Source: Eggerthellaceae bacterium
GTDB taxonomy: Bacteria > Actinomycetota > Coriobacteriia > Coriobacteriales > Eggerthellaceae
DNA length: 64,000 nucleotides
Direction: 5' to 3'
NCBI GenBank assembly: GCA_015062605.1
Contig: SUUI01000002.1
Location: 62,001-126,000, forward strand
A program made the position numbers and the translations under genes. Shown in pieces: positions 9,984 through 14,081 of the stretch. The notes beneath the pieces are model-generated. The model did not search any database. It was not told the DNA's origin and was given only the letters and a program-made list of their open reading frames with translations. Position 1 is the stretch's first letter. Every line of letters starts with the position of its first letter.

Positions 9984-10907
9984 TTAGATCTCGGAGAGCT
10001 CCGACAAATCGTATGGCGTCGCCTGATATACGTAATAGTTCAGCCAGTTGGTATACAGCAGCTGCGCATGCGAACGCCATGTGGAAAGCGGCGTGCGCGA
10101 AGGATCGTCAGCTGGGAAATAATGCGCTGGCACTTCAGGATCGATGCCCTTGGCCACGTCGCGCTCGTATTCCAGCTGAAGCGTCTCGGTATCGTACTCG
10201 GGATGGCCGAATACGAAGAAATGACGGCTGTCGGTGCTCTTCGCGATGAACACCCCCGCCTCATCTGATGCGGCGATGATCTCGAGTTTGGGGTTGGCGA
10301 CGATATCCTCAGCACGCACCTCGGTATAGCGCGAATGCGGCGCATTGAACACATCATCGAAGCCGCGAACGAGCGGCGAGGAGGGCTTCAATACGCGATG
10401 CGGAAACACACCTGAGCATTTCTTGTCGAGTTCGTGCTTGTCGACACCATAGTGATAATAGATGCCAGCCTGTGCACCCCAACAAATGTGCAAGGTGGAG
10501 AATACGTTCGTCTTGCTCCATGCCATGATGCTGCACAGCTCATCCCAATAATCAACATCCTTGAAATCAAGGAGCTCGACTGGCGCTCCCGTGATGATCA
10601 TACCGTCGAAACGCTCGTCTTGGATCTCCTCGAACGTGCGGTAGAACATCGCGAGGTGCTCTTCGGATACGTTCTGCGATTCATGGCTCGCCATGCGCAA
10701 TAGCTCGATATCGATCTGCAGGGGCGTGTTCGAAAGCTTACGCAGGATCTGCGTCTCGGTGACGATCTTGGTCGGCATGAGATTCAAGAGCAGAAGGCGC
10801 AAAGGACGGATGTCCTGATGCATGGCGCGATGCTCGGTGATGACGAAGATGTTCTCATTCTCCAATACACCGGTTGCGGGAAGCAAGTCGGGGATCTTGA
10901 TAGGCAT
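9984..10907 (-). CDS. metA: Homoserine O-acyltransferase (MetA family), probably acetyl-CoA specific
   Basis: The 307-residue protein is a full-length MetA. It starts [11 protein letters not shown], has [18 protein letters not shown] near residues 36-53, the catalytic cysteine in [10 protein letters not shown] near 142, and the HPEYD segment near 236. It acylates the hydroxyl of L-homoserine, the first committed step of methionine synthesis. In this family a Glu rather than Gly in the TGAP-x-x segment is linked to acetyl-CoA over succinyl-CoA use; here the segment is [10 protein letters not shown], with Glu, so acetyl transfer is inferred. AAAGGG lies 5 bases before the ATG. First gene of a metA-MFS-HAD unit. 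Confidence 0.93.
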
Positions 10908-11071: not shown

Positions 11072-12496
11072 TTACACGATTTCCAGATCGTCGCGATCGC
11101 GCAGGGAGTACTTCTTGCCCCACGGAGTCATCGTGAGGATCAAATAGCACAGACCACCTGTGAGCAGCGTGAAACCGGAACCGGTCGTGACATAGAAGAT
11201 GTCACTGTAAATAACGCCGGTCATGGGGTTGTATACCATAAGACCGCAGATAAGGCCGACGATGACGGAGATCGCACCGATGATATTGACGCCACCGGGA
11301 TACTTGTACGCATCGTGACCAGGCAGCAGGAAGGCCGATTTGAGCGACAGCTTGCGCTTGCGCAGGATGAAGCAGTCGACCAAGATGATGCCGTTGATGG
11401 GACCTTGCAGGTAGGCGGCGATTGAGATGAACGCACCGAAGTTCTCGGAAACGCCACCCCAGATGGTCAATCCGCTGATGAGGATTGCCATGATGATGAC
11501 AAGCGCCTTGTAGGAGACCTTCGGCATGGCGGATTTGATAACCATGTCGTTGACGTATAGGCCGTTGCCCATGGTGCCGATATTAGCGAATGCAACCATG
11601 ATGAGCGCGAGCAACGAAACTCCAGGGCCGACCAAAGTCGCGAGCATGACGGTAGGATCGGAGGTGTACTCGCCGACAGCAGCGTACATGGCGAGAGCCA
11701 TAACGCCACCGAGGAAGACGAAGAACGGAGCGATGAGGCCATATGCAGCGCTCGTTGACCAATAGGCGGAACGTTCGCTGTTGCACAGACGCGGCAGAAC
11801 GTAGGCCTGCGTGGACCATGAGAAGCAGAAGGCGACCATGCCCTCATTCGAATATGCGAACGCTTGGATCGGGCTCTCGTAATCCGAGAGATCAGGCTGG
11901 ACGGCCGTGATGTCGGACGGAGAGACACTGAAGCAGATGAAGAGAACGATGACGCCGACGATCAGCAACGCGGTCACCATGATGCGCGATGCCCATTTGA
12001 TGACGTCGGGACCACCGAGTGCGATAACCACACCCAAGATGACGCATATCACGCCGAGGAACGGCACGATGACCTCTGGAATCGTGACACCGAACACGCC
12101 GAAGAGCTGCACGAGCGAATCCCTGAACAGGTCGGCGGTAACCGCGTACCATCCGAAATTCAGAACAGGGCACAAGAACGCCATGACGGCAACGCCGTTC
12201 TTGCCGAGCGCGGCACGCAACCAAATCCACAAATCGATGCCATAGCGTGTCGAGAACCATAGAGGAAGCATCTCGAGCAGCATGAAGAAGAAGCCTATGC
12301 CGAAGATGGTGATGATCAACTGTTGGAAGTTGACCAGGCCAGCTGAATAGGCGCCCTGCTCATAGCACCATGTTGCAATCGCGAAACCGCTGGTGACTAG
12401 GAAGCAATCCCAGAATCCGTACTTACGGTCGCCCTTGATAAGTGGGACGATGCCGAAGAGCGTTTCGTTGCGGATGAAGTTATCATGCTTTCCCAT
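11072..12496 (-). CDS. NCS1-family permease (purine/cytosine/allantoin type)
   Basis: The 474-residue protein has about 12 membrane helices and the NCS1 layout: a short soluble N-terminus (MGKHDNFIRNETLFGIVPL), then FWDCFLVTSGFAIATWCYEQGA near residues 28-49 (first helix, cargo/sodium site), and late ENFGAFISIAAYLQGPINGIILVDCFILRKRKL with the helix 8-10 region. Such symporters bring in nucleobases, hydantoins or related compounds. Which one is transported cannot be read from the sequence. It starts 2 bases after a 63-residue membrane protein gene, and the two form a compact operon with a palindromic upstream region. Confidence 0.85.
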   Translation of the reverse strand: MGKHDNFIRNETLFGIVPLIKGDRKYGFWDCFLVTSGFAIATWCYEQGAYSAGLVNFQQLIITIFGIGFFFMLLEMLPLWFSTRYGIDLWIWLRAALGKNGVAVMAFLCPVLNFGWYAVTADLFRDSLVQLFGVFGVTIPEVIVPFLGVICVILGVVIALGGPDVIKWASRIMVTALLIVGVIVLFICFSVSPSDITAVQPDLSDYESPIQAFAYSNEGMVAFCFSWSTQAYVLPRLCNSERSAYWSTSAAYGLIAPFFVFLGGVMALAMYAAVGEYTSDPTVMLATLVGPGVSLLALIMVAFANIGTMGNGLYVNDMVIKSAMPKVSYKALVIIMAILISGLTIWGGVSENFGAFISIAAYLQGPINGIILVDCFILRKRKLSLKSAFLLPGHDAYKYPGGVNIIGAISVIVGLICGLMVYNPMTGVIYSDIFYVTTGSGFTLLTGGLCYLILTMTPWGKKYSLRDRDDLEIV

Positions 12497-12498
12497 GA

Positions 12499-12690
12499 TT
12501 ACATCACCCCCGTTGAAAGCGTTGCAAATTCAACGATGGCGATAGATACGACCATGATGACGCCTGCAACGATCCAGTCAATTTTCTTCATTCGCGTGGG
12601 GAATTCATACCCTGGTTCTTGCATGATTGCAAGACGTTTGCTGACCTCTGCTTCGAGTTCAGCCTCAAAATCCATTTCTTCAGTAGACAC
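12499..12690 (-). CDS. Small single-helix membrane protein, possible permease accessory subunit
   Basis: This 63-residue product is not a family I recognise by name. It has an acidic amphipathic N-terminal half (STEEMDFEAELEAEVSKR), a motif MQEPGYEFPTRMKKID near residues 23-38, and one membrane helix WIVAGVIMVVSIAIVEF near 39-55. The start chosen is GTG at 12690, six bases from a strong AAGGAGGAG; the GTG at 12696 would overlap that site. It ends 2 bases before the NCS1 permease. Small one-helix partners are known beside other symporters (for example YhdT with PanF), so a subunit or chaperone role is inferred by analogy only. Confidence 0.72.
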   Translation of the reverse strand: MSTEEMDFEAELEAEVSKRLAIMQEPGYEFPTRMKKIDWIVAGVIMVVSIAIVEFATLSTGVM

Positions 12691-12713
12691 TTTCACTCCT
12701 CCTTAACTAGTGA

Positions 12714-12751
12714 GTGTTCAATATTTTAACAGTTTTCATTTTTTTGAACAC
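12714..12751. promoter_or_regulatory. Dyad flanking the -10 region of the permease operon
   Basis: Perfect 8-bp arms GTGTTCAA (12714-12721) and TTGAACAC (12744-12751) are 22 bases apart. Between them on the minus strand is TAAAAT (12723-12728), a plausible -10, some 35 bases before the small gene. The dyad would place a dimeric regulator over the promoter. The segment is far richer in AT than its surroundings. Regulator unknown. The rest of 12752-12899 shows no gene and no clear terminator for the his operon. Confidence 0.5.
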
Positions 12752-12899: not shown

Positions 12900-14081
12900 T
12901 TACTCGAAGCACTCGCCCCACACGCTGGCAAGCTCGCTTGCGCTGTGAGCATCGCTTGTAGTGATGAAGCGCGCACCACGCTCACGCAGATACTCGTAAA
13001 TCGCAGGAGCTGGGTACGGCACGCTTCGCCAACCGCTTGAACGCCCATGTTCGTTGATCTCGAACGCTGCACCTGTAGCAAGGAGCGTATCGCATGCCTT
13101 TTGCCATGCTCGAACATAGCGCGGGTCGTTCTCATCGAAATAACGATTGCCTTCATTGTATTTGGCGAATAGGTCGACATGCCCGATGATGTCGGCACCC
13201 GTGCGCTCGATGACATCGGAAACGGTTTCGTAGTAGGCTTCTGCGAACGCAAGGTAATCGCCCTCGAAACAGGTATACGCAGCCCTCACGAACAAGTCCT
13301 CGGTTTCGTCCACCGAAACGTAGCAGCGCTTGCCATCGCGGCTAACATGCCCGCCTGCTGCTTGCGCGTACTCGATTGGAACCTCCACGTAGTGCGCGGA
13401 GCCGATCAGATAATCGAAACCTAAAGGCGCAGGCTCGCTGAACATGTCCTGCTCCATGCCGCACAGGATAGTGATGCGATCTTTGTAGATCGAGGCAAGA
13501 CGGCGCAGCTCCGCCTGATAAGCGGCCGCCGCGTTCTCCGCCATGCAGTATTCCGTATCGAAATCCGTGAACGAATGGTCGGTAATGCCGATGGCAACAA
13601 GACCCAGCCGTATCGCCTCATCGACCATCTCTTCAGGTGATGCTTCCCCATCGCTTACGGTCGTATGCATATGCAAATCGAATTGCCCAGTCGCATCCTC
13701 GAGGATATCGGCGAGCTTGACGGTTGGCGCCTCGATAACAACCGCATCGTCGCATGACGGCATCTCGATCGGATCGGTGAAGCAACTTACCGTTCCCTTG
13801 TGGCATGCCGGACCATCGGGATGCACTTCAACAAGCAACGTATCGCAGTCGCAATCTGCCGTAATGGATACAACATGCATGTAATTCCCGCTTGTCATGC
13901 CCTTGGTCCAGAGCTCCTGGCGGCTCCTGCTCCAAAACGTCGCCAAGCCTGTGCTCAGGGTTTTTGACAGGCTCTCGGCATTCATCCATGCCACCATGAG
14001 AACTTGACGCGTGTCGCAATCGATAAGTACGGCGGGAACGAGGCCCTTGTCATCGTATTTGATGTCATCGATCGTTGCCAT
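12900..14081 (-). CDS. Fusion: phosphoribosyl-AMP cyclohydrolase (HisI) + PHP-type histidinol-phosphatase (HisK)
   Basis: The 393-residue protein joins two histidine enzymes. Residues 1-105 are His[28 protein letters not shown] near 48-64, the metal-binding [11 protein letters not shown] near 76-86 and CHKGTVSCF near 93-101. Residues about 132-393 are a PHP phosphatase: [35 protein letters not shown] and TTSDAH supply the metal-binding His/Asp set in family order. HisI opens the ring of phosphoribosyl-AMP; HisK removes phosphate from histidinol phosphate. The gene ends a his operon that otherwise lacks a phosphatase. HisE, often fused to HisI, is absent here. AAGGTG precedes the ATG at 14081; 41 bases separate it from hisF. 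Confidence 0.9.

Follow-up and report, generated by a model that had tools for sequence, protein, structure and literature searches.

The small one-helix protein and the NCS1-family permease encoded next to each other in the window (the whole stretch of 64,000 nucleotides analyzed here) probably constitute a two-component importer of small organic cations, with choline as the most likely cargo in this lineage; we put the probability of this reading at roughly 0.68. The first-pass annotation had predicted an overlooked two-component NCS1 transporter, and this prediction is supported by a pairing that holds in both search directions and by other NCS1 branches that are without the small gene.

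The small gene and the permease of the window

The open reading frames agreed with the initial description of a 63-residue one-helix protein encoded 2 bases from an NCS1 permease behind a strong ribosome-binding site, as did hydropathy and helical moment with its acidic amphipathic part and single membrane helix (Table 1). The only hydrophobic stretch, residues 39-57 (Kyte-Doolittle 19-mer mean of 2.5), is followed by 6 residues, and the N-terminus probably lies in the cytosol, as judged from the basic residues directly before the helix. The core motif of the family, RL-x2-M-x4-YxFP, falls in the acidic amphipathic helix, and a structure model of the homologue from locus L038 has a helix at residues 6-21. 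M23, Y28 and D38 are invariant in an alignment of 46 rows, and the membrane helix is present in all 45 rows of the small-protein profile A2. Scans of several copies gave no significant Pfam or NCBIfam match, known small transporter subunits included.

Between the window and locus L025, the small gene shows 20.0 synonymous versus 1.0 non-synonymous differences, and dN/dS among six coriobacterial copies was 0.008-0.30 wherever dS was unsaturated. These values mark the frame as a genuine gene maintained by purifying selection and not as a chance ORF.

Table 1. Coordinates of the features discussed (window positions, unless a locus is named).
Feature	Position	Strand	Remark
Inverted-repeat operator GTGTTCA-N24-TGAACAC, putative	12714..12751	.	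in front of the small gene
Ribosome-binding site AAGGAGGAG	12696..12704	-	5 bases 5' of the GTG at 12690
Small one-helix protein gene	12499..12690	-	63 aa from GTG 12690
Alternative starts of the small gene	GTG 12696; ATG 12675	-	GTG in frame, giving 65 aa and overlapping the ribosome site
Small-protein codons 4-21, acidic amphipathic stretch	12628..12681	-	helical moment 0.27
Small-protein codons 39-57, predicted membrane helix	12520..12576	-	hydropathy
NCS1-family permease	11072..12496	-	474 aa; PF02133, fold of homologue L038, tree
Trp43 codon of the permease	12368..12370	-	same alignment column as Trp43 of the MetT-type permease L186
Glu218 codon of the permease	11843..11845	-	alignment; window numbering
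Small gene before the metformin permease	L186:3792-4001; L191:510-701; L192:510-701

The permease matched PF02133 (E 2e-18; 66.7 bits versus a curated cut-off of 23.5). Its score against NCBIfam TIGR00800, the model for classical nucleobase NCS1 proteins, was 57.4 bits and thus far below the cut-off of 353.1, which makes it a divergent NCS1 member. A phmmer search of the PDB with the window permease returned no match, and the fold is known instead from a model of the L038 homologue, in which small protein and permease were fused by reading through the intervening stop (mean pLDDT 79.5, pTM 0.80). The best fold match of the permease part was CodB (7qoa; Z 35.0, rmsd 2.5, 399 aligned residues), and it also matched Mhp1 (4d1a; Z 29.3, rmsd 3.4, 429 aligned); the model thereby suggests that the large subunit has the LeuT-type fold of both. 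SGLT2-MAP17 entries were also amongst the matches of the L038 permease by Foldseek and by structure comparison. The fused model placed the small protein's membrane helix poorly (pLDDT blocks of 62 and 46). The short linker of the fusion, which probably joins the outer end of the helix to the permease's inner end, is at odds with the topology expected, and no interface was therefore read from the model.

Conservation of the pairing

A permease search of genome contigs gave 58 loci in Actinomycetota, Bacillota, Spirochaetota and one metagenome-assembled genome labelled Bacteroides; the close relatives among them indicate that the window comes from a gut bacterium of Eggerthellaceae type. In all 57 loci that could be evaluated, the permease is directly preceded by a homologous small ORF; locus L077, which ends at a contig end, was left out of this count. 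With few exceptions the gap between the two genes ranges from -4 to +20 bases, and the 131 bases of L054 follow from a permease start assigned by script. In the reverse direction, the small protein was searched as a single sequence (100 relatives) and by the profiles A1 and A2 in partly overlapping sets of 296, 392, 398, 149 and 147 genomes. An NCS1 permease adjoins each of the 37 distinct small-protein loci found at E<=1e-5, including L007 and L162, where the contig ends within the permease. The profile search and co-occurrence check proposed with the original annotation thus returned the pairing from either side, and a family occurring mainly away from transporters, which had been named there as the contrary outcome, is contradicted. 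The family itself is sporadic, with seven real matches in 296 Coriobacteriia genomes and six in 392 genomes of the order to which L038 belongs. Matches weaker than E 1e-5 were without an NCS1 neighbor, except for the remnant L175; that of L154 (E 2.8e-5) has two in-frame stops and no NCS1 gene nearby, and was taken as chance.

An abutting small membrane ORF was found in none of 17 other NCS1 genes, comprising 15 evaluable clostridial ones, CytX of the window's genome and CodB of E. coli. In the control L127 a hydrophobic ORF of 73 aa ends 96 bases upstream and does not match the small-protein profile. An unrooted maximum-likelihood tree of 56 rows, from which L126 (odd length) and L129 (no readable start) had been dropped, splits 40 paired from 16 unpaired permeases, and the dividing branch has 100/100 support. 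The two groups also differ in signature residues. Glu218 is conserved in 40/40 paired versus 1/16 unpaired permeases, and the Trp43 column holds W in 38 of the 40 versus none of the 16. The column of Trp117 of the metformin importer MetT holds W in 39/40 paired and 16/16 unpaired permeases and, since W occurs there in nearly all NCS1 rows, is not specific to the branch.

The paired branch extends to several other genomic settings. Eight clostridial and lactic loci are of an acyltransferase type, in which either the permease ORF is ~890-910 aa long or a second gene follows. Pfam scans covered three of them: the fused ORF of L139 and the gene following the L135 permease each contain an acyltransferase, and the corresponding gene of L138 matched below threshold; the other five were assigned by sequence likeness. 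As a separate observation, NCS1 permease ORFs of 886-909 aa occur in L137, L139, L140, L141 and L179, and that of L139 (L139:5139-7799), which has an AMP-binding acyl-CoA synthetase-like gene in its vicinity, carries a PlsC-type acyltransferase at its C-terminus. Genes for MttB methyltransferase and corrinoid proteins surround the pair in L177 and L178; the MttB of L177 scored above its NCBIfam cut-off and contains an in-frame TAG, and an MttB homologue was also found. L176 has no MttB or corrinoid neighbor, and a wider search of 5 genomes of that order added no member to the MttB-linked branch. The gene next to the pair in L183 encodes the choline dehydrogenase BetA (above cut-off), in L189 a protein with a choline kinase domain is encoded two genes downstream, and agmatinase-family genes recur.

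Distant paired permeases were also found on plasmids of Proteobacteria, Bacillus and Arthrobacter. Eight of the first 9 plasmid records have a one-helix ORF of 50-75 aa, annotated or not, ahead of the permease, mostly abutting it but 67 bases away in Bacillus badius; in the ninth, L186, the ORF is interrupted by a stop. Apart from that of the metformin plasmid (E 1e-5), these ORFs matched the small-protein profile at E 0.1 or worse, and their kinship therefore rests on place, size and make-up.

The metformin plasmids connect this branch with a characterized transporter. MetT has been described as an NCS1 metformin importer of Aminobacter sp. NyZ550 that forms a separate clade, with a Km of 15.9 uM and a requirement for Trp43, Trp117 and Trp231, and is reported to be probably H+-coupled (PMC13390362, 2026). 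Its plasmid homologue L186, whose operon corresponds to the metformin operon of PMC9800807, sits among the paired permeases in the tree, which suggests that MetT itself falls in the paired branch. Like MetT, the window permease belongs to an NCS1 branch apart from CodB, Mhp1 and PucI and has W at the columns of MetT Trp43, Trp117 and Trp231, where MetT numbering beyond 47 appears to be offset by one in L186. Unlike the proposed choline pair, MetT transports a biguanide, itself cationic, and in a term search of the accessible text of that paper, small, accessory and hypothetical proteins all went unmentioned; the MetT homologue H20 is just 24.1% identical to the window permease. The metformin small gene abuts the permease and is intact in plasmid KHPS2, where it encodes 63 aa. 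In KHPS1 and pMET-2, whose strains are described as metformin degraders (PMC9800807), it has an in-frame stop before the helix. According to the accessible part of the MetT report, metT alone complements its own deletion, with the state of the small gene there not given, and two MetT homologues failed when expressed alone, for which the authors name expression level as a possible reason (PMC13390362).

Choline genes and a shared operator

A gene of ~590 aa product length that fuses a winged helix (HTH) to LicC-like nucleotidyltransferase and LicA-like choline kinase domains was found in the flanks of 53/58 loci, usually directly upstream of the pair. LicC and LicA activities serve CDP-choline synthesis. 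The gene lies downstream of the pair in L039, L044, L047, L079, L080 and L081, so that small gene and permease stay together while the position of LicC-LicA moves between loci. In the window's genome it is located on another contig (L087:6593-8362, contig C27), with a GDPD gene two genes upstream, and no choline genes adjoin the window pair, whose neighbors are metA and hisI-PHP. The best solved match of this LicC-LicA protein was the CTP:phosphocholine cytidylyltransferase 1jyk (E 3e-37), and that of its kinase part the choline kinase 4r77 (E 8e-26). In L038 a LicD gene directly follows the permease. From this gene context, the substrate in the window's lineage is probably choline. HTH-LicC-LicA is a single protein, and may be an enzyme that regulates its own operon.

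A TGTTCA-N24-TGAACA inverted repeat stands in front of both the small gene and LicC-LicA in the window's genome. The 56 upstream regions compared belong to LicC-LicA ORFs of 550 aa or more, or to small genes leading their unit; TGTTCA-N20-33-TGAACA with at most one mismatch was detected in 49 of them, 39 being exact. Among letter-shuffled sequences, 1.1% had the repeat when one mismatch was allowed, and an exact repeat did not occur. Of the seven regions without it, four (L030, L031, L065 and L082) have an exact copy farther upstream. The exact operator occurs once in the whole window versus 0.01 expected, and is absent from the distant loci that have no LicC-LicA (L135-L141, L176-L189). Its putative binder is likely the winged helix of LicC-LicA. 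An upstream riboswitch was not found with Rfam, which returned a tRNA alone in the window and tRNAs in 2 of 13 loci.

Proposed mechanism, alternatives and related systems

Under the proposed mechanism, the large subunit would be a permease with a LeuT fold, from a separate NCS1 branch that has small organic cations as substrates. The small subunit, with one membrane helix and an acidic amphipathic helix in the cytosol, would pack against the permease and may be needed for its stability, assembly or turnover, by analogy to MAP17 and 4F2hc, which serve other LeuT-fold carriers as partners. Imported choline would feed the LicA choline kinase and the LicC cytidylyltransferase, yielding CDP-choline. 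Substrate identity, the physical complex, the role of the small protein and ion coupling are elements that we infer.

The frequent presence of LicC-LicA beside the pair and the operator in common would also suit a metabolic role, in which the small protein tethers or regulates LicC-LicA at the membrane and is no transporter subunit. We regard such a role as very improbable, as the pair persists without LicC-LicA in the eight acyltransferase-type loci, in the MttB loci L177 and L178 and on plasmids, and the window's genome keeps the small gene with the permease while LicC-LicA is on another contig. Alternatively, the small ORF could be mainly a translated leader that sets permease expression by coupling, its peptide being functionless. 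The short gaps between the genes and the copies with a stop before the helix agree with a leader, but the three invariant residues, the conservation of amino acids across phyla, the helix in every A2 row and the low dN/dS do not; from the conservation and dN/dS it follows that the peptide itself is selected, leaving the leader explanation a very slight chance.

A two-component importer could also carry ethanolamine, a choline analogue, another amino alcohol or a nucleobase. PF01633 is common to choline and ethanolamine kinases, the permease is annotated as PF02133 alone and its neighbors are metA and hisI. However, the co-regulated enzyme has LicC and choline kinase as best solved matches, other members repeatedly have MttB, BetA or choline kinase in their vicinity, and nearly all other NCS1 rows lack the combination of Trp43 and Glu218; we therefore consider a different cargo unlikely.

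Some loci complicate the two-component importer of organic cations that we favor. The second tandem permeases of S. oralis-type loci (L045, L046, L048, L049 and L057) have an open ORF with a small-gene remnant just upstream; each of the five loci also has, one unit farther upstream, an intact small gene that could serve both permeases. Broken partners such as these and those of KHPS1 and pMET-2, together with the metT complementation, mean that the partner can be lost, supplied elsewhere, or dispensable in some settings.

A broader proposal, to which we give somewhat less than an even chance, is that the whole MetT-containing NCS1 branch is two-subunit and imports organic cations at Trp43-Glu218, and that LicC-LicA forms a self-controlled regulon. 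The family of 50-75-residue one-helix proteins would then have escaped notice owing to the very small size of its members and their frequent lack of annotation, and the cargo across the branch would include choline, betaines and methylamines, and guanidino compounds and biguanides. In phosphocholine lineages, the winged helix of LicC-LicA would control a single regulon made up of the pair and LicC-LicA, and the enzyme may act as a sensor of choline or CDP-choline and as the repressor of its own importer.

A literature search, at the level of listings apart from the papers cited, found no small NCS1 partner and no NCS1 choline carrier. Small membrane proteins encoded beside a secondary carrier are known in MetP-MetS and PanF-YhdT, whose carriers belong to other families (NSS and SSS, respectively). 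Both resemble the window pair in layout; the small protein of the window is without a Pfam or NCBIfam match. SGLT2-MAP17 likewise combines a one-helix protein with a LeuT-fold carrier, but SGLT2 is human SLC5, and the likeness is one of fold. LplT, an MFS carrier, resembles the paired permease L139 in that LplT-Aas fuses carrier and acyltransferase, and differs from it in family, L139 being an NCS1 protein with a small partner. In the lic1 pathway the choline permease LicB supplies LicA and LicC (PMC10434233), and LicB is assigned to the EamA carrier family (PMC12155760). The same choline supply is predicted for the window pair, by an EamA carrier there and by an NCS1 permease with a small partner beside LicC-LicA here. 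Methanogen MttP had been considered as an NCS1 relative and was rejected, as MttP and LicB are the top matches of an EamA protein (PMC12155760).

If the proposal is true, it would provide a choline importer for many gut and oral bacteria bearing LicC-LicA, amongst them Lachnospiraceae, oral streptococci, Gemella, Treponema and Coriobacteriia, and the NCS1 family would gain a cation-carrying branch with a small subunit. A missing small partner would also be one possible reason why the two lone MetT homologues failed (PMC13390362). Choline uptake by gut bacteria bears on the choline supply of the host and on phosphocholine decoration of the bacterial surface.

A methionine link, suggested by the neighbor metA, was dropped, as the metA neighborhood is confined to close relatives. 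The MetA protein itself (window 9984-10907) scored above the NCBIfam cut-off for homoserine O-acetyltransferase and below that of the succinyl form. On the other side of the pair, HisI-PHP (window 12900-14081), a fusion of phosphoribosyl-AMP cyclohydrolase with a PHP domain, ends a run of his genes.
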